A DNA stretch of 64,000 nt from an uncultured Clostridia bacterium (GTDB taxonomy: Bacteria > Bacillota > Clostridia > Christensenellales > Borkfalkiaceae), in contig CALVWW010000004.1 of NCBI GenBank assembly GCA_944368155.1, forward strand, positions 1-64,000, given 5' to 3'. The position numbers were made by a program, and so were the translations under genes. Shown piece after piece: positions 4,445-25,290 of the stretch (its first letter is position 1; every line of letters begins with the position of its first letter). The notes beneath the pieces are model-generated. The model worked only from the letters and a program-made list of their open reading frames with translations, did not search any database and was not told where the DNA came from.

Positions 4445-4625
4445 TTCACAAAAATTTAGCTCTGGCCGAGAGCTAAATTTTTCGTGATTTATGGGGAGCC
4501 AGCTCCCCCTTGCCCCGATTTTTAACAGCCCACAATTATATAATCGGGGCAATTCCCCCTTTGGTGAGCCTGCTGCCGCAGCAAATTGGGTCTTTCTGCG
4601 CAGGGAAACCCTGCTTAAAACATAA
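4445..4625. repeat. R3 structured repeat, copy 1 (candidate ncRNA)
   Basis: A chain of hairpins read on the plus strand: an A/T-rich stem at 4447-4486 with a GGCC loop; GGGGAGC/GCTCCCC at 4493-4508; TTGCCCCGATT (4510-4520) against AATCGGGGCAA (4542-4552) enclosing GCCCACAATTATAT; TGCTG/CAGCA; and GCAGGG-AAA-CCCTGC. The copy at 25112-25290 has different bases in the second and third stems but the same pairing, while the loop and the last 56 bases are nearly identical. That is the mark of a structured RNA or a structure-dependent mobile repeat. It sits in the gap between fakA and recG. No promoter or reading frame is convincing, and I do not recognise the family. Confidence 0.75.
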
Positions 4626-4694
4626 GTAATTTTAAAAGTAAGAAATGTCAAAGAGGCCGTGATTGATTGCCCTATCGCCTGCACAGATAACCAT

Positions 4695-4815
4695 CGGAGA
4701 TACGAGCAAGACGCGAAGCCGGCGGAAGTCGTGAAGGAGCTTACTTTGAGGTAAGTGACTAAACGAAGCCGTAACGGCGACAAAGTATTGCGAAGTATTT
4801 GCGAGGGAAAGCGGT
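4695..4815. repeat. R2 dispersed repeat, copy 2
   Basis: Same block order as the copy at 1061-1190. Here the hairpin is CTTAC/GTAAG around TTTGAG, and the GTATTGCGAAG block follows. It begins 18 bases beyond the fakA stop codon at 4834, on the downstream side of that gene. Confidence 0.75.
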
Positions 4816-4833
4816 TAAATTACTATCGTCTTG

Positions 4834-6483
4834 TCATTCAAGCGATACCATGTAGTAGTACACCGGCTGGCCTCCGTAATGGAAGTCTACGTCGCAGTCG
4901 GGGAACTCCTCGGCAACCTTGGCGGCGAGCGCTTCGGCATCCTCTTCCTTTACGCCTTCGCCGTAGTAGAGCGTAATCATCTCATGGTCGTTCGTCTTAA
5001 GGGCCTCTATAAGTTTAATCGTAGTTTCCTCGATAGTAGTGCCCTGGGCAAGTATCTTTTTGTTGTCTAGGCCGATGATATCGCCCTCCTTGAGCCTGAA
5101 GCCGTTCATCGTGGTGTTGCGCACCGCATAGGTGACAAGCCCCGAGGTGACGTTATCGATTGCGTGCGTCATGTTCGTCTTGTTGACGGGTACGGTGGCT
5201 TCGGGGTTGAACGCGAGCGCGGCTGCAAAGCCCTGCGGTACGTTCTTTGTGGGTATTACGTGTATAGTGCGGTTTGTGACAAGGTCCTTTGCCTGTTCAG
5301 CCGCAAGAATAATATTTGAGTTGTTGGGGAAGACGAACACGTTGGAGGCGTTTATCTTCTGCACCGCGCTGGCGATGTCCTGCGCGGAGGGATTCATTGT
5401 CTGGCCGCCCTCTATTACTCTGTCGCACATGAGGTCTTTGAATATCTCGGCAAGGCCCTCGCCCGAACATATTGCGAGCATGCCCATCTCCTTCTTCTCC
5501 GCCTCGAGTTTGGCCTTTAACTGCCTGTTTTCCTCAAGCATGTTCTCTATCTTGATTCTGTCGAGCTCGCCGAGTTCGAGCGCGTATGAGAGCGCAATGC
5601 CGGGAATGTTTGTGTGCACGTGCACCTTGACAAGCTCTAAATCGCCTATGCAGATTACGCTGTCGCCTATCTGCATGAGTTTTTCCTTGAGCCTGTCGAT
5701 ATCGGCAAGGGTGGTCATGGGTTTTAAGTGAATGATGAAATACTCCGTGCAGTAGCCGAACTCTATCTCGCCGAGGTCAAGGTTGATGATATCGGAATTG
5801 TCGCCGAACTCAGCCTCTTTCTTGGGCTGTTGCGCGTCGGTGGGGATATCGTCCGTGCCGATATCTTCACCGGAAACTGCGGCCAGAAAGCCGCGCATAA
5901 TGGTCATAAGACCTACGCCGCCGCTGTCGACAACGCCCGCCTTTTTTAACACGGGCAGAAGTTCGGGGGTGTGGGCGAGAGCCTCGTCGCCGACGGCGAT
6001 GAGAGCTGTGAAGAAATCGACGAAATCTTTATTCTTGCCTGCGAGCTTGGGCGCCGCTTCGCTCATCAGCCTTACGACGGTGAGTATGGTGCCCTCCTTG
6101 GGCTTGGATACAGCGTTATAGGCCACTTTGGTGCCCGCCTCAAGCGCCTTTGCAAACGTCTTTGTATCAAAGCCCTGCTGGCACTCGCGCACGACCGAAC
6201 AGATGCCGCGGAATATCTGGCTGGTTATAACGCCCGAATTGCCGCGCGCGCCGCGAAGAGCGCCCTTGGATACGGCGTCGCATATCTCCTGAAAATGATT
6301 GGAGGTGCAGGCGTTCATCTCCGCGATGGCCGACTGCATTGTAAGCGACATGTTGGTACCCGTGTCGCCATCGGGCACGGGGAAAACGTTCAGGGCGTCG
6401 ACTTTTGCCCTGTTTATTTCAAGCATTCTGGCACCGCTCGTTACCATTTTGCGGAAATCGGTGCAGTTAATGATTTTTTGCAT
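4834..6483 (-). CDS. fakA: DAK/DhaL-domain fatty acid kinase (FakA/YloV)
   Basis: 549 residues, typical of FakA, the kinase that phosphorylates exogenous fatty acids held by a FakB (DegV) partner before membrane lipid synthesis. The N-terminal DhaL domain (about 1-200) has PVPDGDTGTNM at residues 35-45, the Mg-ATP site, followed by GARGNSG; the rest matches the YloV linker and DegV-like C-terminal part. ATG at 6483 follows GAGGAGC. It lies 61 bases after asp23 in the same direction, the conserved Firmicutes pairing. A DegV protein that could serve as FakB is at 34949-35839, unlinked. Confidence 0.95.
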   Translation of the reverse strand: MQKIINCTDFRKMVTSGARMLEINRAKVDALNVFPVPDGDTGTNMSLTMQSAIAEMNACTSNHFQEICDAVSKGALRGARGNSGVITSQIFRGICSVVRECQQGFDTKTFAKALEAGTKVAYNAVSKPKEGTILTVVRLMSEAAPKLAGKNKDFVDFFTALIAVGDEALAHTPELLPVLKKAGVVDSGGVGLMTIMRGFLAAVSGEDIGTDDIPTDAQQPKKEAEFGDNSDIINLDLGEIEFGYCTEYFIIHLKPMTTLADIDRLKEKLMQIGDSVICIGDLELVKVHVHTNIPGIALSYALELGELDRIKIENMLEENRQLKAKLEAEKKEMGMLAICSGEGLAEIFKDLMCDRVIEGGQTMNPSAQDIASAVQKINASNVFVFPNNSNIILAAEQAKDLVTNRTIHVIPTKNVPQGFAAALAFNPEATVPVNKTNMTHAIDNVTSGLVTYAVRNTTMNGFRLKEGDIIGLDNKKILAQGTTIEETTIKLIEALKTNDHEMITLYYGEGVKEEDAEALAAKVAEEFPDCDVDFHYGGQPVYYYMVSLE

Positions 6484-6544
6484 ATAGCTCCTCAGACTTT
6501 AAAAAGACGCGCCCGTGCATACTGCGGGCGCGCGAAAGGGGAGG

Positions 6545-6898
6545 TCAGAGTTTGACCCCCATGATATTTACGTTCACCGTATCGACTATCATGCCCGAAA
6601 AGCGCTCTACTTTGTACTTTACTCCCTCTTTGAGCGACTCTGCCACGGCGTTTATCGAAACGCCGTACTTTACGATGACGTACACGTCTATATAAATTCT
6701 GTCTCCGTTTGTTACGACCCTGATACCTTTGCCGCTGTTGGTCTGCTTTTTGAACAGTTCCAAAATAGAGTCCTGAATGCGGCGCGACACAAGCTCCACA
6801 ATGCCGTAGCACTCGAGTGCGGCGAATGCCGCAACCTTGGCGAGAACCTGGTCCGATATCGAAATTTTGCCGTAAACGTTACTTGTGTTGACTGACAT
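6545..6898 (-). CDS. Asp23/Gls24 family envelope stress protein (YloU-type)
   Basis: 117 residues with the Asp23 fold: the 'GKISISDQVLAKVAAFAALECYGIVE' type N-terminus and the DVYVIVKYGVSINAVAESL stretch. Members form membrane-associated assemblies linked to cell envelope homeostasis. It lies first in the asp23-fakA unit, divergent from rpmB, as in Bacillus. An AGGAGAAG ribosome site precedes the ATG. Confidence 0.93.
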   Translation of the reverse strand: MSVNTSNVYGKISISDQVLAKVAAFAALECYGIVELVSRRIQDSILELFKKQTNSGKGIRVVTNGDRIYIDVYVIVKYGVSINAVAESLKEGVKYKVERFSGMIVDTVNVNIMGVKL

Positions 6899-6919
6899 AA
6901 CTTCTCCTGTCCCTGTTAT

Positions 6920-6946
6920 TTTATACTATTTGCACGCGTTTTGCAA
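6920..6946 (-). promoter_or_regulatory. Possible promoter of asp23-fakA
   Basis: On the minus strand TTGCAA (6946-6941) is followed after 15 bases by TATAAA (6925-6920). The spacer is shorter than the ideal 17, so this is tentative. Confidence 0.4.
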
Positions 6947-7039
6947 GTCTTTCCCTCAAAATTATTGCACATTTTAAGCCGTGAACTGACTAAATTTTTA
7001 AAATCGGTCAAAAAAAATTGCAAAAGCAGGTGATTTTGG

Positions 7040-7068
7040 TTGATTTTTTTTTAAACGGGTGCTATATT
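7040..7068 (+). promoter_or_regulatory. Sigma-A promoter of rpmB
   Basis: TTGATT (7040-7045), a 17-base spacer, then TATATT (7063-7068). It lies about 75 bases upstream of the rpmB start in an A/T-rich stretch. Confidence 0.75.
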
Positions 7069-7143
7069 AATATAGCCGTTTTTGAAAAGCGGCTTTTATT
7101 TACACGCAATTTTTAAAATTTCCACCACGGAGGTGTTTAGATT

Positions 7144-7329
7144 ATGTCGAGAGTTTGCAGCGTATGCGGTAAGGGACAGACGTCCGGCAACAACGTGAGC
7201 CACTCCAAGAGAAGGACGAGGAGAACTTTTAAGGCAAACGTTCAGAAAGTCAGCTATATCGACGCAAAGGGCAACGCCGTAACAGGTTACGTGTGCACCA
7301 GGTGCATGAAGACCGTTGAAAGAGCGTAA
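7144..7329 (+). CDS. rpmB: 50S ribosomal protein L28
   Basis: 61 residues, a full-length L28 of the zinc-binding type. CSVCGKG near the start and CTRCMK near the end give two Cys pairs that would bind one zinc. The middle is rich in basic residues (HSKRRTRRTF). A GGAGGTG site precedes the ATG. It is transcribed away from asp23, as in other Firmicutes, and is followed by its own terminator. Confidence 0.98.
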   Translation: MSRVCSVCGKGQTSGNNVSHSKRRTRRTFKANVQKVSYIDAKGNAVTGYVCTRCMKTVERA

Positions 7330-7362
7330 GGGCTTTGCAACTTTAAATTATGCAGCTTGTTG

Positions 7363-7391
7363 AGTCGGGCGGCGTCTGCCGCCCGACTTTT
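7363..7391 (+). terminator. rpmB terminator
   Basis: AGTCGGGCGGC and GCCGCCCGACT form an 11-pair hairpin with a GTCT loop, followed by TTTTT. Confidence 0.95.
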
Positions 7392-7648
7392 TGCGCTACG
7401 CGCCTGTTTTTGAAAAACTGCACGGCGGCAAACTTTTTTCGGCCATATAAAGGCGGTACCGTATATGTTTTAAGCAAACGCATGCCGTTAATTCAGCCGT
7501 ACGGCTGTTTAAATTTGCAAATATAACTTTTCTGTATTTTTAATTAATTATTTGTTCCCAACAAAAAATAAAGGCGTTTTTATTCAGATATACAGGCACA
7601 AATACAGCAAAATACAGTCAATTTTTGATAAATCCGCAATAAAATACA

Positions 7649-7685
7649 GCGGCGCGGGCTGCACTTTAAGTGCAACCCGCGCCGC
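7649..7685 (-). terminator. Terminator of the LRR lipoprotein gene
   Basis: GCGGCGCGGG and CCCGCGCCGC enclose a second palindrome (TGCACTT/AAGTGCA). It lies 31 bases after the stop of the minus-strand gene at 7717. The rest of the gap 7392-7716 is A/T-rich and I see no gene in it. Confidence 0.75.
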
Positions 7686-7716
7686 TTATAATTTGAAAAT
7701 ATATATTTACAAAATT

Positions 7717-8892
7717 TTACACTGCAACAAAATACCAGTATGCCGTGAGAAGTTCGCCCTTCACCCATTCAGCCGCCTGCCCGGAATCGGCAAGAGCATA
7801 CGAAGGAATTCTGCCCTTTGCATCGGGGTCGCCTTCCGACTCATCATTGAGATAAAAATTAAAGAGATAATCTTCGGCCTCTTCAGAACCGGGGGCGACG
7901 CTCTCATCCTCTTCGGTTTCGGGGTCGTCTTCGGCGAGGCTCTCGGTATAGAGCCATGCACCCTTGCCCGCAGGCATAACAACCGAAGTCACCGCCGCGC
8001 CTTCAAACACATTTGAACCCATATATTCAAGCGAGGAAGGGAGAGCAATCTCCGTAAGCGAGGTGCAATAGGAAAAAGCTCCTTCCTCTATGAAAGTTAC
8101 TGTTGAAGGAATTTCAATGCTCCCGAGCGCCGTGCACCCGGTGAATGCCGCATAGTCGATATAAGTTATGTCACCCTCGAAAACAACCTGCGTAATGCCG
8201 CTGCACGCGGAAAAAATCATAAACTCGACAGTCGTTACACCCTCGGGTATTACCACGACGCCCTCAAGCGATTCACAATCGTAGAACGCCTGATTCTCTA
8301 TGGCGGTGAGAGTGGACGGAAGATTTACATTCGACTCTCCGTCGGCGTTGATTTCGGAAAGTGCGCTGCATCCGTAAAAATCGCGGCTGCTTATTTTGGT
8401 CACTCCTTCCGGGATGGTTATGCTGGTCAGCGATTCGCAGAGCGAGAACGTGCTGTAAGTAGTCTGGATAGTAGAGGGCAGCTCAACAGTCGTAAGCGCA
8501 CGGTTAAATGCAAAAGCGGCGCCGCCGATTGTGCTTACCCCTTCCTCTATAACGAGCGAATGCAGATAGCGCGACTGAATAAATGCCTGTTCGCCTACTC
8601 CGCGCACTTCCACGCCGTTTACCTCGGCGGGAATGACGACGTCTACAGGCCTGCCGCTGTAACCTGTAACCATGTAATACGAACCGGCAGGCGCCTCTTC
8701 AAGCTCATCTTCAGAGGGCTGGCCCTCCACCTCTTCGTTGGGATTTTCAGAGAGTTTGTCCGTGCCGATGACTTCATCCGTTGAGGAATAGAGCGTATAT
8801 TCTATATAGGTCTCCTGGGAACAGCCGGCAAGAGCGGGCACGCAGGAGAACATTGCGGCGGCAGCTACGACCGCTAAAAATTTTATCTTCAT
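7717..8892 (-). CDS. LRR (BspA-like) lipoprotein
   Basis: 391 residues. A lipoprotein signal peptide ends in lipobox LAGC (Cys near residue 23), so the protein should be lipid-anchored on the outer face of the membrane. A short acidic linker leads into about ten LRR_5 repeats of the 'L-x-x-I-x-I-P-x-G-V-T-x-I' kind (about residues 85-325). The C-terminus is acidic (EDDPETEEDE) and then unlike known domains. No good Shine-Dalgarno precedes the ATG at 8892. Likely a surface-binding protein; ligand unknown. Confidence 0.88.
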   Translation of the reverse strand: MKIKFLAVVAAAAMFSCVPALAGCSQETYIEYTLYSSTDEVIGTDKLSENPNEEVEGQPSEDELEEAPAGSYYMVTGYSGRPVDVVIPAEVNGVEVRGVGEQAFIQSRYLHSLVIEEGVSTIGGAAFAFNRALTTVELPSTIQTTYSTFSLCESLTSITIPEGVTKISSRDFYGCSALSEINADGESNVNLPSTLTAIENQAFYDCESLEGVVVIPEGVTTVEFMIFSACSGITQVVFEGDITYIDYAAFTGCTALGSIEIPSTVTFIEEGAFSYCTSLTEIALPSSLEYMGSNVFEGAAVTSVVMPAGKGAWLYTESLAEDDPETEEDESVAPGSEEAEDYLFNFYLNDESEGDPDAKGRIPSYALADSGQAAEWVKGELLTAYWYFVAV

Positions 8893-9039
8893 AAGTTACC
8901 GTTCAGGGTGATACCCGAAATTTTTTTACAACATATATATTCTACCATAAGCATGCGCCGCACGCAAGAAAAAGTTGCTGAATATATTGTGAAATAAGCC
9001 CGCACAACGATTTCGCCGCAAATTTTGTGCAGGTTTGCT

Positions 9040-9975
9040 TCAGCCGCACACTTCTTTGAACACGCGCATAAAATTGCGCGCCGCAATCTTCTCGGCAACG
9101 CGCGCGCCCAGCCTTTTTTCAAGCATGTTTAGAAGGGCGGGAACACACCCACAACTCTCCATTCCGCGTTGCGGAGGCATGCCGTCGAAGTCAGACCCCA
9201 AAGCCGCGCAGTCTTCTCCGCCCGCGTTAACTATATGTACTATATGTTCAAGCGCGGAAGCCAGAGCATCGTCCCCGCCGAGAAAATCAAGGCAGAAGTT
9301 AATGCCGATAATGCCTCCGCATCCGGCTATCGCCCTTATCTGCGCGTCGGTAAGATTGCGGCTGACGGGGTGAAGGGCGAAAGCGTTCGAATGACTTGCG
9401 ACCAGCGGCCTCTTCCTGCCGCGCAGAAGGTCTGAAAGTCCGCCGTCTGAAAGGTGCGAAACGTCAATTATTATTCCCGCTTTATCGAGCGCCTCTGCAA
9501 CCTCCATGCCGGACCCGGTAAGTCCGCGCTCCTCACGGGAAGAAAAATCAGGCACGCCGCCGACATATTTCAGATTGGGACGGGCGAGAGCGTTTTCATC
9601 GTTCCACACGAGCGAAGCCATTCTGACACCGGCAGAACTAAGGGCCGCAACCCCGCGCGAAGAACGGATAAAACCGATATTTTCCGCCGTAAGAATACAG
9701 CCGAGCCTGTCTCCGTTCAGAGCGGCCGTAAGGTCGGCATAGCTTAAAACGGGCGCACATATAGCGAAATTTTCGGCGACCTGCTCATTGAACCAGCGCG
9801 CATATTCAGAAAAATCTCCGGCTGTTCCGTTTCGCAAAAACACAGCGAAGCACTGAAAAGCGCAGCCGGCCTGCTTCAGACGTGCGAAATCGGTCTGCAA
9901 CCGATTATCAGACATACGCTCACCCAGCCTTTTTGCATGGGTGAGCGTATCGCAATGTAAATCTGCATAAAACAT
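9040..9975 (-). CDS. Membrane-dipeptidase-type peptidase (M19)
   Basis: 311 residues of the M19 renal dipeptidase family, a binuclear-zinc TIM-barrel that cleaves dipeptides, often with D-residues. The metal-binding HCD is at residues 7-9. TAENIGF carries the bridging acid, VSHLSD and ASHSNAF supply histidines, and GSDFDGM is the usual late motif. There is no signal peptide, so it is probably cytosolic. It follows spoVM by 30 bases in the same direction and may be the last gene of the rpe-thiN-spoVM unit. A role in peptide or cell-wall peptide recycling is likely. Confidence 0.93.
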   Translation of the reverse strand: MFYADLHCDTLTHAKRLGERMSDNRLQTDFARLKQAGCAFQCFAVFLRNGTAGDFSEYARWFNEQVAENFAICAPVLSYADLTAALNGDRLGCILTAENIGFIRSSRGVAALSSAGVRMASLVWNDENALARPNLKYVGGVPDFSSREERGLTGSGMEVAEALDKAGIIIDVSHLSDGGLSDLLRGRKRPLVASHSNAFALHPVSRNLTDAQIRAIAGCGGIIGINFCLDFLGGDDALASALEHIVHIVNAGGEDCAALGSDFDGMPPQRGMESCGCVPALLNMLEKRLGARVAEKIAARNFMRVFKEVCG

Positions 9976-10005
9976 TAAAATATCCCCGGTGAAATCGATT
10001 TTTGC

Positions 10006-10083
10006 CTATCTGCCGCAGAACACTCTTAAAACCTTTCTTACGGGCTTGGGCGGCTTTACGCACACGACGATAATTTTGTTCAC
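10006..10083 (-). CDS. spoVM: Stage V sporulation protein M (SpoVM)
   Basis: A 25-codon gene that is easily missed. GTG at 10083-10081 starts one base after the thiN stop, with GGGGAG eight bases upstream, and the frame ends at TAG 10008-10006. The peptide begins MNKIIVV and continues KPPKPVRKVLRVF, matching the SpoVM plan of a short hydrophobic N-terminus, a K-x-P-K core and a basic amphipathic helix. SpoVM recognises the curved forespore membrane and recruits SpoIVA for coat assembly. The order rpe-thiN-spoVM is the same as in Bacillus. It predicts that the organism can sporulate. The two prolines and the Cys near the end are unusual. Confidence 0.8.
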   Translation of the reverse strand: MNKIIVVCVKPPKPVRKVLRVFCGR

Positions 10084-10084
10084 A

Positions 10085-10693
10085 TCACACGCTCCCCAAA
10101 TTTATTACTACAAGGGCAGTGTCCTCACCGCCGAAAGTCACAAAGGCGCCGTCGCTTTGCACTATGTTTGAAACGCCGCGGCACTCGCCGTAGGAAATGA
10201 CTTCGGGATAGGAATATTTCAGCCCCCTGCTATCCAGTATATGCAGAGGCGCGGAGAATGGGAACACGGAAATGGTTCTGCCTGCAAGGCCGTTGAATTC
10301 CGCCCCACCGCGGGCAGCGTAAATTACCGTGTTTTCACTTACCAGACGGGCGGATATGCCGCGTTGAATGCAGTAATACAGAAGTTGCACGTTGCCTAAA
10401 AAGTGGTCTTCCCTGCCGCCGAAAGCTCCGTAAATATCTATATCCGTTATACCGTCCGCTATCATCTTGCGCACGGCAATCTCGCCGTCTGTAAAGTTCT
10501 TTTCGGAGGGGTAAATCTCCTCCGGCGGGGGACAGGGAGTCTCATCGAGGCTGTCGAAATCGCCGATATTTTTATAAATTTTTACCTTATCTTTGGCCCA
10601 GCGATAGGCACCGTCGCAACAGTATACGGGCACGCCGTCCGCATCAATATTACCCGGATAGGGCGTACCGTTTAAAAGCAGTATCCCTCTCAT
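10085..10693 (-). CDS. thiN: Thiamine diphosphokinase
   Basis: 202 residues. It converts thiamine and ATP to thiamine diphosphate. The N-terminal part carries the family motifs YCCDGAYRWA and GDFDSLDE (about residues 23-55). IYGAFGGREDHFLGN near residues 112-126 is the typical TPK catalytic stretch. The ATG overlaps the rpe stop by four bases (ATGA), so the two are translationally coupled. spoVM follows after one base. Confidence 0.95.
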   Translation of the reverse strand: MRGILLLNGTPYPGNIDADGVPVYCCDGAYRWAKDKVKIYKNIGDFDSLDETPCPPPEEIYPSEKNFTDGEIAVRKMIADGITDIDIYGAFGGREDHFLGNVQLLYYCIQRGISARLVSENTVIYAARGGAEFNGLAGRTISVFPFSAPLHILDSRGLKYSYPEVISYGECRGVSNIVQSDGAFVTFGGEDTALVVINLGSV

Positions 10694-11358
10694 TGCCCGC
10701 GCAGCCCCTTAACCGCCGAAGCAAAATCGGGAGCAGAAAAGAGAGCCGAGCCGGCCACAAGCACATTTGCGCCCGCGGCGACGCACTGCCCTGCCGTCTG
10801 CGCGTTTATGCCGCCGTCGACCTCGATATCCAGTTCGGGTTTGCCTGTATTTACGGCATATTCCCGCGCCAATCTGATTTTTTCAATCGCAGAGGGAATA
10901 AACTTCTGACCGCCGTAACCGGGGAACACGCTCATGATAAGAACCATATCGCATAGACCGAAAACGGGAAAGATATTTTCCACCGGCACATCGGGGTTTA
11001 CCACAGCACCGCACTTCACGCCGTATGATTTTATAAGTTCCAGCGTATCCTTAAGATAGCTTTGCGAAATTTTAGAGCACGCCTCGTAGTGCACGGTAAT
11101 GATATCTGCACCCGCCTCGGCAAAGAACTTTATCTGCGTTTGGGGGTGCTCTATCATGAGGTGGACGTCTAACGGAAGTTTTGTGCGGGGACGGATATTT
11201 TTTACCATCTGCCCGCCGAAAGTTATGGGTCCGACGAACGAGCCGTCCATCACGTCGCAGTGGATTAGGTCGGCGCCGCTTTTTTCGCACAGTTCGACAG
11301 CCTCTCCCATGCGCGAAAAATCGGCAGAAAGTATCGAAGGCGCTATTTTAATCTGCAT
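10690..11358 (-). CDS. rpe: Ribulose-phosphate 3-epimerase
   Basis: 222 residues, full length. It interconverts ribulose 5-phosphate and xylulose 5-phosphate in the pentose phosphate pathway. The TIM barrel shows SILSADF near the start, HCDVMDG with the catalytic Asp (near residue 36), VHLMI, MSVFPGYGGQ and the late DIEVDGGI with the second catalytic Asp. In most relatives rsgA lies directly upstream; here a 47-codon ORF does, three bases away. Confidence 0.97.
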   Translation of the reverse strand: MQIKIAPSILSADFSRMGEAVELCEKSGADLIHCDVMDGSFVGPITFGGQMVKNIRPRTKLPLDVHLMIEHPQTQIKFFAEAGADIITVHYEACSKISQSYLKDTLELIKSYGVKCGAVVNPDVPVENIFPVFGLCDMVLIMSVFPGYGGQKFIPSAIEKIRLAREYAVNTGKPELDIEVDGGINAQTAGQCVAAGANVLVAGSALFSAPDFASAVKGLRGQ

Positions 11359-11361
11359 AAT

Positions 11362-11505
11362 TTATTCTCCGAAATTTTTGATTTTGTCGAGTATATTATA
11401 AAAATCGCCGCCTTGCCCCGTAAAGTGATAGCTGCGCTCAATTTTATCGGACATGCCGCGATTTTTTATTGCACGTGTAATTCTCCCTATGATTGCGATT
11501 GACAT
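11362..11505 (-). CDS. Small hypothetical ORF (47 aa) upstream of rpe
   Basis: ATG at 11505 follows a strong GGAGGAA seven bases upstream, and the frame stops three bases before rpe, so it looks translated and coupled to rpe. The peptide is basic in its first third (IGRITRAIKNRG) with a later GQGGDFYNILDKIK stretch. I do not recognise it. It occupies the place where rsgA would be expected, and its ribosome site abuts half an R1 repeat. It could be a leader peptide, a new small gene, or chance. Confidence 0.45.
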   Translation of the reverse strand: MSIAIIGRITRAIKNRGMSDKIERSYHFTGQGGDFYNILDKIKNFGE

Positions 11506-11514
11506 TGGAAATTC

Positions 11515-11575
11515 CTCCTTGCTCCACTCCGTTTCGCTATGCATCTCCCCTTAATGGGAGGCTCTATTGCGGAAT
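11515..11575. repeat. Half copy of R1
   Basis: Read on the minus strand it begins AGAGCCTCCC, then AAGGGGAGATG, and ends GTGGAGCAAGG, matching one arm of the R1 element at 881-1030. The partner arm is missing. Confidence 0.55.
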
Positions 11576-11654
11576 ATATTCTTCTGAATAAATAACGTGC
11601 GCAAGCAAGGTTTCCTTGCGCCATCGCGACACAATTTAACCTCATTAAAGTAAT

Positions 11655-11787
11655 TTATAACTTCATAGAAGCGAGCAAGACAAGGAGCGTGCGGAAGTTG
11701 TGAAGGAGCTTACTTAGAGGTAAGTGACTGAACAAAGCCGTAAGCGCGACACCGTATTGCAAAGCTTATATGAAGTTTGGCGGAGTT
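11655..11787. repeat. R2 dispersed repeat, copy 3
   Basis: Contains GCGAGCAAGACAAGG, GGAGCTTAC-TTAGAG-GTAAGTGACT and GTAAGCGCGACACCGTATTGC, then TTTGGCGGAGT as in copy 1. Its end abuts the rlmN stop codon at 11787. Confidence 0.75.
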
Positions 11788-17907: not shown

Positions 17908-17972
17908 AAATTTTCATAAAACCCAGCCCCGCGCAGAGCGCGGGGCCGCAGAGATAACTCAGACCGGAGCAA

Positions 17973-18185: not shown

Positions 18186-18186
18186 G

Positions 18187-18756: not shown

Positions 18757-19624
18757 CGTTCTGCACCTGCTCGCGTATCTTTTCTATTTCGTTTTTAAGC
18801 TCCAGCCCGCACTTCGTTATGGTTATATCGTTGCTCTTGGAACAGATGGTATTTGTTTCCCTGTTGAACTCCTGTACCAGAAAGTCCAGCTTGCGGCCGA
18901 CGATTTCCGACCTGCATATTTCCCTGAACTGTTCGATATGCGATTTGAGGCGGGTGAGCTCCTCGTCGATATTTGATTTATCTGAAAAGAGCGCCACTTC
19001 GGTTAAAAGCTTGCCCTCGTCGTAGTTTACGCCGTCGAGATATTTTTCCATCTTCTCTTTAAGCCTTGCGCGGTAAGCTTCGGCGACCAGCGGCGCACGC
19101 TCCGACACGGCTCCGACCAGCTCTTCTATCCTGTTCATGCGCGAAAGCATATCCTGCCCGAGCTTTTTGCCCTCGCGTGCGCGCATTTCATTCAGATTCC
19201 CGAGCGCTGCCTCAAGAGCGGAGTTGAGCGCGGAGATGAGCTCGTCGTCGGCGGCCTGCCCCTCGTCGCGGACAATTACGTCGGGCAATCTTAAAAGGGA
19301 CGTCGCGGTGAGGTCGAAAGGAATATCGGGCGCAAGTTCCGAAAGGCGCCTTGCCGCAGAAATGTATGATGCCGCCGCCCCCTCGTCAAGGCTTAAAGCC
19401 TTTTTCTTTTCACGCTTGTCGGCAAGGGTTACATATACGTCGGCATGGCCGCGCGTGAGCTTCGAGCGGATAGTTGCACGCACCACCTCCTCATATGCCG
19501 CAAAAATGCGGGGCGCCTTTATTATGGCGTCGAGATAGCGGTTGTTCACCGTTTTTATTTCAACCGAGAGCTCTATTCCGCCCTCGCGGTATTCTCCTCT
19601 GCCGTAACCGGTCATGCTGAGCAT
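18749..19624 (-). CDS. YicC family endoribonuclease
   Basis: 291 residues from the ATG at 19624, which follows AGGCGGTG; the frame extends to 19669 without homology. It begins with MLSMTGYGRGE, the hallmark of the family, has VEIKTVNNRYLDA near residues 25-40, and ends with the DUF1732 region (KLDFLVQEFNRETNTICSKS). Characterised members are endoribonucleases that act on small and messenger RNAs. First gene of the yicC-gmk-rpoZ-priA unit. Confidence 0.94.
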   Translation of the reverse strand: MLSMTGYGRGEYREGGIELSVEIKTVNNRYLDAIIKAPRIFAAYEEVVRATIRSKLTRGHADVYVTLADKREKKKALSLDEGAAASYISAARRLSELAPDIPFDLTATSLLRLPDVIVRDEGQAADDELISALNSALEAALGNLNEMRAREGKKLGQDMLSRMNRIEELVGAVSERAPLVAEAYRARLKEKMEKYLDGVNYDEGKLLTEVALFSDKSNIDEELTRLKSHIEQFREICRSEIVGRKLDFLVQEFNRETNTICSKSNDITITKCGLELKNEIEKIREQVQNVE

Positions 19625-19684
19625 ATTATACACCGCCTTTAAAACTGTTGCACAAAATAAAACGCGCAACTTTTTGCAGATTAT

Positions 19685-19713
19685 ATTATAGCAAAAGGCA
19701 CAGAAAAATTCAA
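19685..19713 (-). promoter_or_regulatory. Sigma-A promoter of the yicC operon
   Basis: On the minus strand TTGAAT (19713-19708), a 17-base spacer, then TATAAT (19690-19685), about 60 bases before the yicC ATG. Confidence 0.8.
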
Positions 19714-19827
19714 GCGGTTTGCAATGATATGCCGCACCATTATATTATTTTGGCGTCATAATTTTTAATATTGCGCAAAAAAACCGCGCGGGCATACGCA
19801 CGCACGGCAAAATTTATTATCAGACCG

Positions 19828-20478
19828 TCAGTAGTCGGCACGCCCCTCGTCCTCGAGGCCGCGCAGACGGGCGGATACAAGGCGGTAATTATTCTGCACG
19901 TCGCTCTCAAAGAGCGTTATCTGTTGATTGGACGAGGCTACCTCGCCCGAAGTTTCTGCAAAAAAAGCTATATTGCCCGCGCTCATTATGACGGGCACTC
20001 CGTAGAGATAGGCATAGGCGCGCGCCAGCAGCGGCGGCACGCCGCCCTGCGCACTCTCCATGACAGCAAGAATTATATTGCACCCGCACGAGGCAAGGGC
20101 GCGGAAACCCTCGGGAAAATAGAGGTCGTTCTCTATTATCAGCCCTAATTTATAACCGCCCGCAGAATACAGGCCGAGGTATGCGCCGCTCTTGTAGTCC
20201 TCCCCGCCGAATACGTGGTTCATATCGGTAATGCCGAGGAGCTTACCCCTGTCGGCAACGGCGGCAGATTTTCTCAGCGCCCCGCGCGAGAGCGTTTTAC
20301 AGCCGCATACGACGGTGCAGCCGTTGGCGCGCGAGAGGCGCGCCGCCTCTTCAAACTTATCCGTTTTGCCGGTAAGTTCGCTCTCGTAGTCGACTTCGCC
20401 GAGATAGTTAAAGCCGAAGAGAGCAATATCGCAGGCGGGCAATTTCTGCGCGCCGCCGGAAACAACGCATACTTTCAT
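19828..20478 (-). CDS. Nitrilase-fold protein lacking the catalytic triad
   Basis: 216 residues that align with carbon-nitrogen hydrolases over their core. The stretch GKLLGITDMNHVF corresponds to 'G-x-LLG-x-YRK-x-H-x-F' but has Met where the catalytic Lys belongs. LGLIIENDLYFPE corresponds to 'I-G-V-x-I-C-Y-D-L-R-F-P-E' with Glu in place of the nucleophilic Cys. The first catalytic Glu is not evident either. So it probably cannot hydrolyse amides and may bind a ligand or partner. It is also shorter than the 260-280 residues usual for the family. It stands alone, divergent from the M1 peptidase gene. Confidence 0.75.
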   Translation of the reverse strand: MKVCVVSGGAQKLPACDIALFGFNYLGEVDYESELTGKTDKFEEAARLSRANGCTVVCGCKTLSRGALRKSAAVADRGKLLGITDMNHVFGGEDYKSGAYLGLYSAGGYKLGLIIENDLYFPEGFRALASCGCNIILAVMESAQGGVPPLLARAYAYLYGVPVIMSAGNIAFFAETSGEVASSNQQITLFESDVQNNYRLVSARLRGLEDEGRADY

Positions 20479-20569
20479 ACCATATATATTACTGCGGCAA
20501 AAATTTTTTTGTGAAAGAAACCCGGCGCCGCAATTTGCAAAACAGGGAAAAATCAGAGACCTGCCCGCA

Positions 20570-20575
20570 TATAAT
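20570..20575 (+). promoter_or_regulatory. Possible -10 box next to the M1 peptidase start
   Basis: A perfect TATAAT ends eight bases before the ATG at 20584, and no Shine-Dalgarno is present. If used, transcription would begin at or beside the start codon, giving a leaderless mRNA. No good -35 box is visible. Confidence 0.35.
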
Positions 20576-20583
20576 ATGTTGCT

Positions 20584-22017
20584 ATGAAAAAAATTGTTAC
20601 GCTGATTGCGGCAGCCGGCTTGTGCGCGGCGGCCATACCCTTTTCCGCCTGCGCGAATGAAAACGAGCGGACGGAATACAATATCACCTGCCGTTACGAT
20701 GAGGAGAGCGGCACGTTGCAGGCGGAGTGCGCCGTCAATTACAAGAACGACGGGGCAGCGACCGACGTTTTAAAATTCAACCTGTACGGCAACGCCTACC
20801 GCGAAGGCGCGCTCTACCGCCCCGTCTCCGACGAACTGAATTCGCGCGCATACTATAACGGTGAAAGCTACGGACAGATGGAGATAACCTCCGTCGAAGG
20901 CGGGCAATGGAACATATGCGGCGAGGACGAAAATATTCTCGAAATTCTTCTGCCGCAGACGCTCGGCGAGGGCGACAGCTGCGAAGTGACAATTGCCTAC
21001 ACACTTACGCTCGCCGAAGTAAACCACCGCACCGGCATAACCGAACACACGGTAAACCTCGGCAACTTTTACCCCGTGGCCTGCGCGCGCGGGAACGACG
21101 GGGAGTTCATCGAATGCGTGTACTACAGCGACGGCGACCCTTTTTTATCCGACTGTGCCGACTATACCGTTGAGCTGACCATGCCCGCAGGATATACCGC
21201 CGCGACGAGCGGCAGCATGACGGCAAGTTCAGGCAACAGCTGCACCTATTCGCTGGAAAACGCGCGCGATTTCTGCATTGTGCTCTCAGACGAGTTCAAA
21301 ACAATCTCGCGCGAGGTAGACAGCACGCAGGTGACCTACTACTATTACGACGACGAAAACGCGCAGAGCGTGCTTGCCGCCGCGGGCGACAGCCTGATAT
21401 ACTTTGAAAATACTTTCGGAGGATACATTTACCCTTCATATTCGGTGGTGCAGACGGGCTTTGCCGCGGGAGGAATGGAGTATCCGGGGCTGTCTATGAT
21501 AAACGGAGGTCTTGACGAAGACGACTTCATCTATGCGACGGTGCACGAAACTGCGCACCAGTGGTGGTACGCCATGGTGGGCAGCGACCAGATTAACTGT
21601 GCATGGCAGGACGAAGGCCTTGCCGAGTATTCCGCACTCCTGTTCTTTGAAAACAGTCCCGAATACGGAATAACGCGGACGGGGCTTGTGAATGCCGCGG
21701 TATCGGCATACCGCGCCTATTTTACGGTATACAACCAGATTTTCGGCGACGCCGATACCACGATGACGAGGCACCTGGAAGACTTTGTAAGCGACTATGA
21801 ATACGTAAACATCGCCTACAACAAGGGACTGATACTCTTTGACACGCTGCGCACATCAATAGGCGATGAAAGATTTATTGCCGGACTTAAGAATTACTAT
21901 TCGGCCTGCCTCGGGAAGATTGCCTCCGAACAGGACCTCACCGGCTGTTTTACCGCCACGGGCGTAGATATACAGGGATTTTTTGAAAGTTTCCTCGAAG
22001 GAAAAATTATTATATAA
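20584..22017 (+). CDS. M1-family metallopeptidase, lipoprotein
   Basis: 477 residues. The signal peptide ends in lipobox FSAC (Cys near residue 23), so it should be anchored outside the cell. The zinc site HETAHQWW is near residue 320, with the third ligand in DEGLAEY 18 residues later, as in gluzincin aminopeptidases. The GGMEYPG motif before it is the exopeptidase GxMEN-like element. The N-terminal beta domain is present, but the long C-terminal helical domain of full-length M1 enzymes is not, so it is a short form. It probably trims extracellular peptides. The regulation is unclear; see the -10 box beside its start. Confidence 0.9.
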   Translation: MKKIVTLIAAAGLCAAAIPFSACANENERTEYNITCRYDEESGTLQAECAVNYKNDGAATDVLKFNLYGNAYREGALYRPVSDELNSRAYYNGESYGQMEITSVEGGQWNICGEDENILEILLPQTLGEGDSCEVTIAYTLTLAEVNHRTGITEHTVNLGNFYPVACARGNDGEFIECVYYSDGDPFLSDCADYTVELTMPAGYTAATSGSMTASSGNSCTYSLENARDFCIVLSDEFKTISREVDSTQVTYYYYDDENAQSVLAAAGDSLIYFENTFGGYIYPSYSVVQTGFAAGGMEYPGLSMINGGLDEDDFIYATVHETAHQWWYAMVGSDQINCAWQDEGLAEYSALLFFENSPEYGITRTGLVNAAVSAYRAYFTVYNQIFGDADTTMTRHLEDFVSDYEYVNIAYNKGLILFDTLRTSIGDERFIAGLKNYYSACLGKIASEQDLTGCFTATGVDIQGFFESFLEGKIII

Positions 22018-22049
22018 AAATTTTAACAAAACCTCTGTTAAAACGGCAA

Positions 22050-22084
22050 CGCCGCGGCGCGATACCTTCGCGCCGCGGCGTTTT
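22050..22084. terminator. Terminator between convergent genes
   Basis: CGCCGCGGCGCG pairs with CGCGCCGCGGCG around ATACCTT and is followed by TTTT on the plus strand. It can serve the M1 peptidase gene. Confidence 0.8.
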
Positions 22085-22122
22085 CAGAAAAACAATAAGG
22101 AGGAAAACTACTGTGTTCAGTT

Positions 22123-23574
22123 TTAACAAGCGCTGCCGTCGGAACCGTCGTGCTTTGCATGCCTGGCTTTATCCCTGCGGACGAGCACGATAGTGGTAAT
22201 CAGCCCCGCCGCGACGAGCATCACGGGCACGAACGCCAGCAATATTATGACAAATATCAACCACGCAATACCTGCGCCGACCGGATTGTCGGACTCCGGC
22301 TGTGCGGACGTACACAGTTCGAAGTACAGCTCGCCTGCGGGAAGTCCCCCGTATAGGGCGGTATAGCCGCCGTCGTCCTTTATAAACTCCAGCCCGGACG
22401 TGTTCGACAGAAGATAATCTGCCGTATTTATGCGCACGGTGAGCGTGCCGAAATCCGCCCAGTAGCTTGCGGGCGAGAGATAGTATAAATAATCGTAGGA
22501 ATAGGGCGAAGTATCTATATTTATATCGGGATATACGGGAACGGTAACAGAATTTATTATTTTGCCGCCTGCGGGCACGGTCAGCTCATACTCCAGCCAG
22601 CGCATGGCGTACATCGCTCTGCTGCCGATACCCCACAGACTGCTGTAGCTTATGCCGCTCGCGCACATGTAATTGACTATATAGTTGAACCAGTCAGCGT
22701 CGCTCACGCCCTCCATGCTCTGCGGTTTTATGCCGCGGATAAATTCTATAAAGGTGGTATCCGAGGGCTCCGGAGCGGCAACCGGCATATCCTCCGACTC
22801 TGCGGCAAGTCCGCCGCTGCCGCCCGAGTAAGCATATGTACGGCTGAAGAACTGCAAATCTCCGGGCAGTCCGCCGGCAAAATACAAACTTTCGCCGTAG
22901 TTTATCACCACTTCGACGACGCCTTGCTCTCCCGTGACCGAATAAAATCCGTCAGAGAAGGTATAAAAGGCATAGGTCGGAGTAAACCGCGCGACGAGCG
23001 AGGCTTCCGCGTCTGTACATGTGTAAACAGTGACGGGACAGTCGTACGACAATACGCCGTGTTCTATCGGCGCGGCGGAAAGGCCGGCCCGCGCGCTTTC
23101 GAAATCGAAATAGGCGTCTATGTAGCCGTAGTTATAGTCGTAGGAGATGCGGTAGTTATATCCGAGGGGCACGCCTCCCTCCCCTTCTGTCACGGAAAAG
23201 AGATGACTGTCGCTGAAACTTTCATCGGTCCACATCGCATAGTCGGGCAACAAGCCGAACGGAAATAGCATTCCCACGGTAACATCTTCGGAAGTCGGGT
23301 TATAAAAAGTGTAGCGCGCGGTTACGGTCGAACCGTAGCCGCTCATATCGTCCGGGTCGGGATAGCCGCTTATATTAAAAGTCAAAAGCTCGCTCTCCAC
23401 CTCCAGAGGGCAGCTGTCCGCGGGATAGACGCCCGTGCCGCCCGTGCCTGGAATGAAGCCGGGGCCGGAATTGGCGCCTGCGGGCAGTGCGGCAAAAGGC
23501 AGCGCAATGCAGAGCACTGACGCGGCGAGCGCACAACATATTGCAATTTTGCCGTATTTTTGCCTTGATATCAT
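22123..23574 (-). CDS. Secreted protein with C-terminal membrane anchor, unknown function
   Basis: 483 residues. An N-terminal signal peptide (about 1-34, ending near PAGANS) and a C-terminal membrane helix (about 435-465) followed by a basic cytosolic tail give a surface-exposed protein. The extracellular part is rich in Tyr, Gly and Ser. An early stretch (ARYTFYNPTSEDVTVGMLFPFG) resembles proteins with a DUF4424-like beta domain, but I cannot place it firmly. The ribosome site is a run of nine G (23591-23583 on the minus strand), eight bases before the ATG, which could vary in length. Confidence 0.75.
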   Translation of the reverse strand: MISRQKYGKIAICCALAASVLCIALPFAALPAGANSGPGFIPGTGGTGVYPADSCPLEVESELLTFNISGYPDPDDMSGYGSTVTARYTFYNPTSEDVTVGMLFPFGLLPDYAMWTDESFSDSHLFSVTEGEGGVPLGYNYRISYDYNYGYIDAYFDFESARAGLSAAPIEHGVLSYDCPVTVYTCTDAEASLVARFTPTYAFYTFSDGFYSVTGEQGVVEVVINYGESLYFAGGLPGDLQFFSRTYAYSGGSGGLAAESEDMPVAAPEPSDTTFIEFIRGIKPQSMEGVSDADWFNYIVNYMCASGISYSSLWGIGSRAMYAMRWLEYELTVPAGGKIINSVTVPVYPDINIDTSPYSYDYLYYLSPASYWADFGTLTVRINTADYLLSNTSGLEFIKDDGGYTALYGGLPAGELYFELCTSAQPESDNPVGAGIAWLIFVIILLAFVPVMLVAAGLITTIVLVRRDKARHAKHDGSDGSAC

Positions 23575-23582
23575 TTAAGCTA

Positions 23583-23591
23583 CCCCCCCCC
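23583..23591 (-). promoter_or_regulatory. Poly-G tract serving as ribosome binding site
   Basis: Nine consecutive C on the plus strand are nine G in the mRNA, centred about 12 bases before the ATG at 23574. There is no other Shine-Dalgarno. Slippage would shift the spacing and so the translation level. Confidence 0.5.
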
Positions 23592-23663
23592 GCTACGCTT
23601 ATATTATACCATATATGCGCGCTCCGTTCAATACCCGCGGCAAAAATTTTTTACACCGTTCGC

Positions 23664-23692
23664 TTGCCAAAAGGAATATAATGCATTATAAT
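23664..23692 (+). promoter_or_regulatory. Sigma-A promoter of the corA leader
   Basis: TTGCCA (23664-23669), exactly 17 bases, then TATAAT (23687-23692). The start would fall at about 23697-23699, some 205 bases before corA. Confidence 0.85.
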
Positions 23693-23694
23693 TA

Positions 23695-23879
23695 AAGCGT
23701 ACCGCGGAAAAACGTGCGGCTTTCGGCCGCAAATGCAGTTCCCGCGGACGGAGATTATTATGGACCCATATTACAGTTGTTGCTGTAAAACAGTTCTCAA
23801 TTCCACAAAACATTGATATAAGACAGAACACCGTACCGCTTGATTTTTAAGGCACGGGTTTTGTCCCGTGCATTTTTTT
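23695..23879 (+). ncRNA. Structured leader RNA ahead of corA, ending in a terminator
   Basis: The RNA begins at the corA promoter. Its ends pair: AAGCGTAC (23695-23702) with GTACCGCTT (23833-23841), one bulged C. Inside are CCGCGG/CCGCGG enclosing TGCGGC-loop-GCCGCA, and TTACAG/CTGTAA in the next arm, flanked by GGAGA/TCTC. A terminator follows at 23852-23879. Only 24 bases then separate the T-run from the corA ATG, with no second promoter, so corA should depend on read-through. AAAAACGTGC (23708-23717) could pair with the terminator's GCACGGGTTTT as an antiterminator. It lacks the M-box core and I know no named class that fits. A metal-sensing riboswitch is an inference. Confidence 0.6.
23852..23879 (+). 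terminator. Intrinsic terminator in the corA leader
   Basis: GCACGGG and CCCGTGC form the stem with a TTTTGT loop, followed by a run of seven T. It lies before corA, not after a gene. Confidence 0.9.
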
Positions 23880-23903
23880 ACTAATTTTTAGGCGGTATAG
23901 CAA

Positions 23904-24908
23904 ATGGTACAGTTCTTTTGCACATCTGAAAGGCGCCCTTTGAACCAGCTGGAAAACTTTGAAAAGCTCTGCTGGGTGGATATGATAAACCCCACCGACG
24001 ACGAAGTTGAAGACATTGCGGCGCTCACGGGAATTTCCGAAGATATGCTGGCTTCCGCACTCGACGACGAGGAGCGCGCCCGTGCCGAAATAGACGACGG
24101 CAACTACATGTTCATACTCGACTGCCCCGTAATCGAGGAAGGCGACAGCGGCGACGTTTACTCCACTTTGCCCCTTGCGGTAATTTATAACTCAAAGTGT
24201 GTCGTGACGGTATCCTTGAAGGGAAACCCCGTTTTGAAGGACTTCATCACCGGCAGGCAGCGCGTCGTGACCGAAAAACCCGTGCTGTTTACACTCAACT
24301 TTATGCTGGGCAACGCCAAGCGGTTTTTAAATGTGCTCACGCAGATTGACAGAAAGTCGCGCCGCGTTCAGTCAGAGCTCGGCAGGACGATGAAAAACGA
24401 GGAGATAGCACAGCTTTTAGAGCTTGAAAACTCGCTCGTTTACATTTCCACCTCCTTAAATTCCAACTACGGCGTGCAGGAGAAGCTCTCCAAGGCCGAG
24501 GCCGTCACAACGCGTGAGGACTATCAGGACCTCTACGACGATGTGGCGATAGAGAGCAAACAGGCGATGGAAATGTGCAACATATACAAGGATATACTCA
24601 CAGTCACCATGGACGCCTACGGCTCCATGATTTCCAACAACGCAAACGACAGCATGAAAAAGCTGACTGTAATTACCGTGCTGCTCGCAATTCCCACAAT
24701 GATAGCCGGTTTCTGGGGCATGAACGTAGTCGTGCCGGGACAGATAGGCGAAGACGGCTCGTCGGCTGTCTGGTTCTGGATAATTCTCGCGGCGACGCTG
24801 CTGTTAACAGTGGCCGTGGGTATTTTCCTCGGCAAATTTATGCGTTCGGGCGGAGCAATCAAGAGAATTAAGCGCACGAAACGGCGCAGAGATAAGGATA
24901 AAAAATAG
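23904..24908 (+). CDS. corA: CorA-family divalent cation transporter
   Basis: 334 residues. CorA forms pentameric channels for Mg2+ and sometimes Co2+ or Ni2+. The long acidic N-terminal cytosolic domain is followed by the stalk helix and two C-terminal membrane helices (about 255-275 and 290-310). The diagnostic GMN is present in FWGMNVVVPG. The tail is strongly basic (KRIKRTKRRRDKDKK), as expected. fmdB follows after three bases. Expression probably passes through the leader and terminator upstream. Confidence 0.95.
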   Translation: MVQFFCTSERRPLNQLENFEKLCWVDMINPTDDEVEDIAALTGISEDMLASALDDEERARAEIDDGNYMFILDCPVIEEGDSGDVYSTLPLAVIYNSKCVVTVSLKGNPVLKDFITGRQRVVTEKPVLFTLNFMLGNAKRFLNVLTQIDRKSRRVQSELGRTMKNEEIAQLLELENSLVYISTSLNSNYGVQEKLSKAEAVTTREDYQDLYDDVAIESKQAMEMCNIYKDILTVTMDAYGSMISNNANDSMKKLTVITVLLAIPTMIAGFWGMNVVVPGQIGEDGSSAVWFWIILAATLLLTVAVGIFLGKFMRSGGAIKRIKRTKRRRDKDKK

Positions 24909-24911
24909 CGT

Positions 24912-25109
24912 ATGCCCATATTGCAATATAAATGCTCTTCCTGCGGAAAAGAATTTGAAGAGCTGGTAAAAAAATTCGACGAAAAAGTAGTCTGCCCGGC
25001 ATGCGGCGGCACTGCCGAACGCAGTTACCGCGGCGAAATGTTTTCGGCTACGGGAGCGCGCATAAAAAAATGCAGCGGCAACTGCAAAACCTGCGGAGGA
25101 TGCCACTAA
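24912..25109 (+). CDS. FmdB-family zinc ribbon protein
   Basis: 65 residues. CSSCGKEFEE and CPACGGT make a CxxC...CxxC zinc ribbon of the FmdB type in the first half. The C-terminus adds a cysteine-rich tail CSGNCKTCGGCH with a third and fourth CxxC/CxxCxxC set, seen in some anaerobe members. The function is unknown; it may be regulatory or a metal chaperone. It follows corA by three bases, and an R3 element begins three bases after its stop. Confidence 0.9.
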   Translation: MPILQYKCSSCGKEFEELVKKFDEKVVCPACGGTAERSYRGEMFSATGARIKKCSGNCKTCGGCH

Positions 25110-25111
25110 AA

Positions 25112-25290
25112 TTCACAAAAATTTAGCGCGGGCCGCGCACTAAATTTTTTGTGAGTTTGAGGAACTAAGTTCCTCTGGCGGCATTTTTTAAGAGCCCACA
25201 ATTATATGAATGCCGCCATTCACTTAAGTAGAGCCTGCTGACCGCAGCAAATTGAGTCTTTCTGCGCAGGGAAACCCTGCTTGAAACATA
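25112..25290 (+). repeat. R3 structured repeat, copy 2 (candidate ncRNA)
   Basis: Hairpins in the same order as copy 1 (4445-4625): an A/T-rich stem at 25112-25154 with GGGCC at its tip; GAGGAAC (25159-25165) with GTTCCTC (25169-25175); TGGCGGCATT (25176-25185) with AATGCCGCCA (25209-25218) around GAGCCCACAATTATAT; TGCTG/CAGCA; GCAGGG-AAA-CCCTGC. The second and third stems share almost no bases with copy 1 yet pair as well. The first hairpin ends in TTTTTTG and could terminate corA-fmdB. No open frame is meaningful here; the rest of the gap to 25383 shows nothing. Confidence 0.75.

Follow-up and report, generated by a model that had tools for sequence, protein, structure and literature searches.

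A dispersed six-hairpin repeat of Borkfalkiaceae genomes whose stem covariation carries no RNA signature

INTRODUCTION

The first 64 000 nucleotides of contig CALVWW010000004.1 (GenBank assembly GCA_944368155.1, an uncultured Clostridia bacterium of the family Borkfalkiaceae), here called the window, contain two copies of an element of ~190 nt that is drawn as a row of six hairpins, H1 to H6. An earlier note on this DNA pointed out that two stems of these copies differ in their bases and keep full pairing, while a loop and the 3' end stay fixed. It took this as a sign of selection on RNA structure and proposed that the element is either a small RNA or a structured mobile repeat.

How can a fold maintained in RNA be told from one maintained in DNA? 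An RNA fold tolerates G.U pairs. Because a G.U on one strand is an A.C on the other, G.U should be commoner than A.C on the strand that is transcribed. Here we report that the stems of the six-hairpin element covary strongly and that G.U and A.C are equally rare in them: the covariation carries no RNA signature. The element is probably an interspersed piece of mobile DNA, non-autonomous and ~190 nt long, whose six palindromes keep their pairing at the level of DNA.

RESULTS

Anatomy of the element

The element consists of a core of ~175 nt and an AT-rich tail of ~15 nt (Table 1). H1 has 18 bp and a bulged C, H2 has 7 bp, and H3 has 10 bp and a TTTAAGGGCCCACGATTATATA-like loop that is conserved in part. 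H4 and H5 are short. H6 is built in two steps, an outer stem of 4 bp and an inner one of 6 bp, and leads into the tail. Base composition returns to background ~16–20 nt past the core; the tail ends near +16. Inspection by eye found no inverted repeat that links the left and right ends of the element.

The two copies lie where the earlier note had put them, and the stem pairs, the common loop and the near-identical last 56 bases that it quoted are all present (a 58-base repeat at the 3' end is 90% identical between copies 1 and 2). The 3' end that it called fixed is so between these two copies only: elsewhere the inner H6 stem, GCAGGG-AAA-CCCTGC, is replaced by GGCGGG-AAA-CCCGCC or GGCGAACTAAATTCGCC with the pairing kept. 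The outermost pairs vary as well (TCAC/GTGA, TCGT/ACGA, TCCC/GGGA, TCTC/GAGA).

Table 1. Parts of the six-hairpin element in the window (R1, covariance model of 16 copies and 53 pairs; R2, model of the right end)
Feature	Position	Strand	Basis
Copy 1, core H1–H6	4446..4622	+	R1 176.5 bits; sequence
Copy 1, H1, long palindrome at the terminus, one C bulged	4446..4487	+	
Copy 1, H2, GGGGAGC/GCTCCCC	4493..4508	+	
Copy 1, H3, TTGCCCCGAT/ATCGGGGCAA, 23-nt loop	4510..4552	+	
Copy 1, H4 and H5, two short hairpins	4553..4583	+	
Copy 1, H6, outer 4-bp stem (one mismatch in this copy) and inner GCAGGG/CCCTGC	4593..4620	+	
Copy 1, AT-rich 3' tail, right end	4622..4638	+	Base composition of 113 copies; R2 match 4582–4639
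Copy 2, core H1–H6	25113..25288	+	R1 174.7 bits; sequence
Copy 2, H1	25113..25154	+	
Copy 2, H2, GAGGAAC/GTTCCTC	25159..25175	+	
Copy 2, H3, TGGCGGCATT/AATGCCGCCA	25176..25218	+	
Copy 2, H6 inner stem	25266..25280	+	
Copy 2, AT-rich 3' tail	25289..25305	+	R2 match 25248–25305; base composition
Right-end remnant of a third copy (end of H5, H6, tail), joined to another repeat	11579..11638	-	R2 54.1 bits; R1 partial match 11599–11637

The stems covary

In the 16 copies of model R1, 93.6% of 842 stem cells are paired, and both sides have changed in 33 of the 53 pairs. The covarying stems that the earlier note saw in two copies are thus real and belong to more hairpins than it listed; loss of pairing in further copies, which it had named as evidence against its reading, is not seen. 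When the structure is slid by 1–3 columns, pairing falls to 37–47%. Four of five measures exceed all 500 shuffles; the fifth, the count of further pair types, does not (46, against a shuffle mean of 47.4). A prediction made independently of our structure returned 42 pairs and double changes in 30. Covariation was also computed without any structure, from the best 66 and 85 rows of two alignments (60 and 85 distinct); of the 40 strongest column pairs in each, 33 and 37 lie within helices. Some strong mutual-information signals fall outside the helices and differ between the two alignments. We considered a contact between the H1 and H3 loops and set it aside, the non-helix signals being few, inconsistent across alignments and perhaps due to subfamilies.

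Pairing in H3 is nearly perfect, with Watson–Crick pairs in 672 of 679 cells in the 68 copies of alignment A3 and 873 of 887 in the 89 copies of A4 (both described below). The unpaired segments CAAAT and TTCA and parts of the H3 loop are conserved across genera while the stems change.

Copies 1 and 2 fold better than all 200 of 200 dinucleotide shuffles (z -4.8 and -5.8). The opposite strand of copy 1 also lies below all its shuffles in folding energy (z -4.3), which gave the first hint of palindromic DNA and not of an RNA made from one strand.

G.U pairs are no commoner than A.C

Pair types were counted in two alignments. A3 has 97 rows; we used the best 74, with scores of at least 60 bits, which left 68 once identical rows were dropped. 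An exact 24-base pattern of one common variant occurs in 110 stretches of the GTDB species set, and 80 of these were the source of A4; we used the best 91 of its 103 rows, 89 after removal of two common with A3. The 68 distinct copies of A3 give 3538 cells: 3320 Watson–Crick, 47 G.U, 50 A.C and 121 other. The 89 further copies of A4 give 4533 cells: 4183 Watson–Crick, 54 G.U, 57 A.C and 239 other. Pooled over 157 copies, G.U stands at 101 and A.C at 107. Could a mixture of transcribed and untranscribed orientations have levelled the two counts? We rejected this explanation, as no asymmetry appears after a split by the direction of the gene on the H1 side, the G.U:A.C counts being 26:23 (37 copies), 13:18 (23 copies) and 8:9 (8 copies left unassigned).

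RNase P RNA served as a control. In 24 genomes of the same genus (from 29 with a match, among 41 searched) it has 2338 Watson–Crick, 254 G.U, 12 A.C and 34 other cells. Passed through the same pipeline, three sets of 24 elements gave G.U:A.C counts of 11:14, 8:4 and 7:6. A comparison of the pooled elements with RNase P yields p of about 1e-33, a guide only, since the cells are not independent. Thirty distinct tRNAs of this genome have 595 Watson–Crick, 46 G.U and 0 A.C cells, a count that leans on ARAGORN structure calls and is biased to good pairs. RNase P is the better control of the two because its aligner and folding program are those used for the elements. The equality of G.U and A.C, unlike the excess in RNase P and tRNA, means that the covariation is not of the RNA kind. 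In keeping with this, the Rfam comparison that the earlier note had asked for found no family matching the window copies or seven loci of relatives, the best scores lying far below the gathering scores.

Closely related copies show how the stems change. Among 25 copy pairs differing by at most 12% there are 65 double Watson–Crick changes; single changes produced 4 G.U, 9 A.C and 18 other mismatches, and 10 cells had changed otherwise. Template switching in replication can, in a single step, create perfect stems and compensatory changes of several bases, according to the part of PMC8794818 drawn on here. The close copy pairs do not tell template switching from an exchange of modules.

Many copies, one family of bacteria

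With copy 1 as query, blastn found 54 matches in this genome of 1.73 Mb; some are the H1 palindrome on the opposite strand. Model R1 found 72 matches at E <= 1, and 54 of these score at least 56 bits; here too some of the weakest are merely the H1 palindrome read on the opposite strand. In a sample of the family, 68 of 201 genomes and 5 of 18 genera carry the element at E <= 0.01, including 25 of 29 genomes of the same genus. Samples of the class and the order had matches in 3 of 291 and 16 of 297 genomes, all within the same family and none outside it, under stricter filters that may have missed remote relatives. The 80 stretches listed among the 110 that match the 24-base pattern come from Clostridia or Clostridiales bacteria or from five Candidatus Coproplasma species; Candidatus Coproplasma is placed in the Borkfalkiaceae, order Christensenellales, by its authors in the passage of PMC8035907 used here.

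Carriage by phages or plasmids was considered and set aside: viral contigs had no match to two exact patterns, and blastn found none in plasmids (copy 1 only as query) or in phages (copy 2 only). Searches of the open-licence literature, screened by title and by the start of the abstract, turned up no description of this repeat, and the searches made found no known non-transcribed repeat that the element matches, a match the earlier note had said would count against it.

Sites without the element in relatives

The site of copy 2 is empty in the related genomes G154, G210 and G202, and in G199 it holds a short element of two hairpins instead. At the locus of copy 1, G154 and G202 have no copy, while G199 has one in the opposite orientation, split by another repeat into two model matches. 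More broadly, we compared the H1-side flanks of 30 model matches (two pairs of which are single copies split by an insert) with the corresponding stretches of relatives. In 11 of the 30 the alignment ends within 60 nt of H1; the 29 flank rows concerned end 0–18 nt from H1, save one at 25 nt and one at 44 nt. The other matches had no syntenic stretch for comparison, or their alignment ended further off. One insertion site is common to G154 and G199, down to the base; their H1 hairpins at this site differ by two base pairs, both compensated. The element is thus present at some syntenic loci and absent from others, between species and not between strains. With its many dispersed copies, empty sites and arrays, it agrees with the structured mobile repeat that the earlier note had offered as one of its two proposals.

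At C3:182284 (L033) and C13:7848 (L058), flanks of ~27–40 bases are directly repeated on either side of the element. L033 lies near a contig end, so its flank repeat may be a tandem duplication or an effect of assembly.

H1 often lies next to a stop codon

Positions were tested for copies flanked on either side, within 400 nt, by open reading frames of 100 codons. Where the gene on the H1 side ends towards H1, H1 begins no more than 7 nt from its stop codon in 16 of 27 copies of a first set and 16 of 26 of a second; random placement in the gap would give 2.6 and 1.8. The tail side stays more than 7 nt away from stop codons in both sets; a looser list has one exception, at 4 nt (L086). In copies of the opposite orientation H1 often sits just upstream of the next gene's ribosome-binding region; the distance to the first possible start is at most 21 nt in 11 of 23. 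Positions -8 to -5 of the left flank are A-rich, and position -1 is T or C. A stop codon lies within 10 nt in 45 of 116 copies; 29 of the 45 are TAA.

Copies sit mostly between co-directional or convergent genes, and both orientations occur. Copies between divergent genes make up 1 of 38 and 7 of 45 in the first and second set, counts that do not allow a strong claim of avoidance.

Arrays and exchangeable hairpins

Some copies form arrays, in tandem and with no cassette gene between the units. Head-to-tail arrays include three units on contig C31 at a spacing of 192–193 nt; tail-to-tail arrays are found at L044, L080, L083 and L087. Some arrays sit in spacers of what appear to be fab and dnaK operons. 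At L087, tail-to-tail elements occupy two successive spacers of one operon, presumably for fatty-acid synthesis.

In the four-unit array L069, units 1 and 3 have one version of H2/H3 and units 2 and 4 another, and unit 3 alone has a different H1. Over 32 copies of this genome, pairwise identity in H1 or H6 is nearly unrelated to identity in the other modules (r -0.05 to 0.14), and the identities of H2, H3 and H4/5 are weakly linked (r 0.16–0.31). The near-zero correlations and the L069 pattern indicate that the hairpins behave as exchangeable modules.

Model R2 also found right ends without a full core. At L291 (contig C25) an element at 3–177 lies just upstream of one gene and a right-end remnant at 1993–2055 just past its stop codon; we take the genes flanking the remnant to be dnaK and then dnaJ. 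An autonomous version, with a gene between the two ends, was considered, and C25:1993-2055, the candidate inspected most closely, proved to be a remnant between genes.

Y1 transposases are apparently not required

Y1_Tnp was not found in this genome or in the relatives G154, G199, G064, G110, G128, G189 and G194, all metagenome-assembled genomes in which gaps could hide a Y1 gene. These seven relatives have from 7 to at least 13 element matches each. Across the family sample, 69 of 201 genomes have Y1 transposases: 29 of the 68 with the element and 40 of the 133 without it (p 0.085). Y1 transposases seem not to be required.

Neighbouring genes and other repeats

Copy 2 starts 3 nt past the stop codon of a small gene that follows CorA; we take the small gene to encode an FmdB-like zinc ribbon. 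Window positions 1–810 hold tandem repeats at a spacing of 69 bases within a long open reading frame, presumably for a leucine-rich, BspA-like protein.

A second dispersed repeat of ~150 bases (GAGCAAGAC...GTGAAGGAGCTTAC...) occurs in the window at 1040–1190, 4667–4817 and 11636–11786; one of its copies comes after copy 1, and the right-end remnant of the six-hairpin element is fused to a further one. Short relatives with two hairpins occur at L280:15440-15900 (G154), near 5400 in L274 and past the small gene in L092. They combine an H1-like TTCACGG... palindrome with an H6-like ...GAACTAAATTC... hairpin, and their tail is AT-rich in a similar way. G154 has three of them in a row where this genome has one long copy and one short. 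A third small repeat (CTGCCGTTTCCC...CTCGGCAGAG...) lies inside the element, in the H1 loop at L030 (C20:7238) and near H4/H5 at L023 (C2:36499), L027 (C2:181165) and the first unit of L069. Yet another (GCGGCGTGCGGTA...GTTTGCTCAT...CAAACAGCGC) breaks H2 of two G199 copies, L282:13553-13879 and L282:16582-16880, and a stretch similar to it lies upstream of the truncated copy L009 (C2:104084).

DISCUSSION

What keeps six stems paired if not RNA? On the reading we favour, that of a mobile element with its pairing kept in DNA, a putative recombinase or transposase acting in trans would recognise the folded single-stranded or cruciform DNA through the end hairpins H1 and H6 and the conserved loops. 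Alternatively or in addition, intrastrand template switching and exchange between copies may recreate perfect arms in one step. Pairing would then persist because a recombinase must read folded DNA, because the arms are repeatedly restored, or both. New copies would enter where the DNA is rich in A, for example at stop codons, with H1 turned towards the gene and the tail pointing away. We suggest more tentatively, as a possibility that we ourselves doubt, that the element represents a class of mobile DNA read almost purely by shape: multi-hairpin, with ends almost free of fixed sequence (TC...GA and a few loop bases), built of exchangeable modules and inserted next to stop codons by a putative family-specific recombinase.

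The obvious rival is a structured RNA, small or cis-regulatory, with its fold under selection and its copies spread by duplication. The strong covariation of the helices, the conserved loops and a folding energy below all shuffles are what such an RNA would show, and copies mostly between co-directional or convergent genes are probably transcribed. We nevertheless reject it and consider it very improbable: over 157 copies G.U is not in excess in either orientation to the neighbouring gene, the controls show a strong excess, several positions are not common to relatives, both orientations are used and Rfam offers no match. Neither selection on RNA structure nor the small RNA of the earlier note therefore survives. 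A repetitive extragenic palindromic (REP) family with its bacterial interspersed mosaic elements (BIMEs), moved by a Y1 (HUH) transposase of the REP-associated tyrosine transposase (RAYT) type, would account for copies that are extragenic, near gene 3' ends, in inverted pairs and mosaic (compare PMC3733652, in the part consulted), and Y1_Tnp is slightly, not significantly, commoner with the element. We reject membership in such a family, too, and give it hardly any weight: Y1_Tnp was not found in eight element-bearing genomes (subject to gaps in these assemblies), the association over 201 genomes is not significant, neither GTAG nor CGTC recurs as a constant tag where the aligned copies end, and the unit is 190 nt with six hairpins and not a palindrome of 20–40 bp.

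A selfish repeat without any structural demand is a more serious competitor and overlaps in part with our own explanation. Template switching, conversion between arms and the exchange of ready-made hairpins would yield its matched stems as a by-product. The mechanism is published (PMC8794818, in part), hairpins are swapped, and the close copy pairs have far more double Watson–Crick changes than single ones. We think it rather unlikely all the same. The six hairpins of the long form stay together, and the conservation of CAAAT, TTCA and parts of the H3 loop from genus to genus, next to stems that change, implies that something recognises the element.

Several points weigh against the mobile DNA element that we prefer. 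Its mobility is deduced from copy number and from site differences at the level of species and not of strains, so that at any one locus the relative may have lost a copy; no transposase, target-site duplication or autonomous copy has been identified. The copies behind the G.U:A.C counts are related, and their cells are therefore not independent. The data do not separate template switching from a need for DNA hairpins. Y1 genes are, as noted, somewhat commoner in genomes with the element. The conserved loops could serve a protein that binds the transcript, and some effect on mRNA is possible for copies in spacers that are likely transcribed.

The element is a natural case of textbook covariation, strong enough to pass for an RNA family, without an RNA signature. 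Covariation alone is no proof of RNA, and the G.U:A.C ratio is a cheap discriminating test that could be used on other repetitive 'structured RNA' candidates. With dozens of copies per genome in many genomes, the family is a dense record of how perfect palindromes evolve, and it points to a putative mobilising enzyme in a family of gut bacteria.

How does the element compare with known systems? Integron attC sites and the ends of IS200/IS605 are recognised as folded single-stranded DNA, by structure more than sequence, and attC sites come in arrays. Hallmarks of attC are conserved core-site sequences, extrahelical bases and the IntI integrase. The likeness is a general one only: the units here are in tandem without a cassette gene, and Y1 was not found in the genome. 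BOX of Streptococcus pneumoniae is likewise a modular small intergenic repeat; its module structure and host differ. Miniature inverted-repeat transposable elements (MITEs) of the DDE type have terminal inverted repeats and a target-site duplication. Our element shares with the MITE-like Correia, RUP, ERIC and RPE repeats that it is short, non-coding, non-autonomous, dispersed and foldable (PMC2229807, as far as the portion used goes). It differs in that no inverted repeat joining its ends was seen by eye, the left being a hairpin and the right a hairpin plus an AT-rich tail.

The closest likeness is to REPs and BIMEs, which are extragenic, of many copies and palindromic, lie near gene 3' ends and mostly between co-directional or convergent genes, and form inverted pairs and mosaics (PMC3733652, in the excerpt cited). 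A REP is defined there as a palindrome of 20–40 bp with GTAG or CGTC at one end, a description that our element does not fit. REPs often have GT pairing, which those authors take as a sign of RNA function (same excerpt); here G.U is rare and equals A.C. The unit is also larger, with six different hairpins, no constant tag and no significant association with Y1. Mosaic clusters of extragenic palindromic units, the mark of a BIME, are present; their units are not REPs, so that we speak of likeness and not of membership. The element looks like a composite extragenic palindromic repeat, BIME-like, without a REP tag or a known transposase, and a new variant of that theme.

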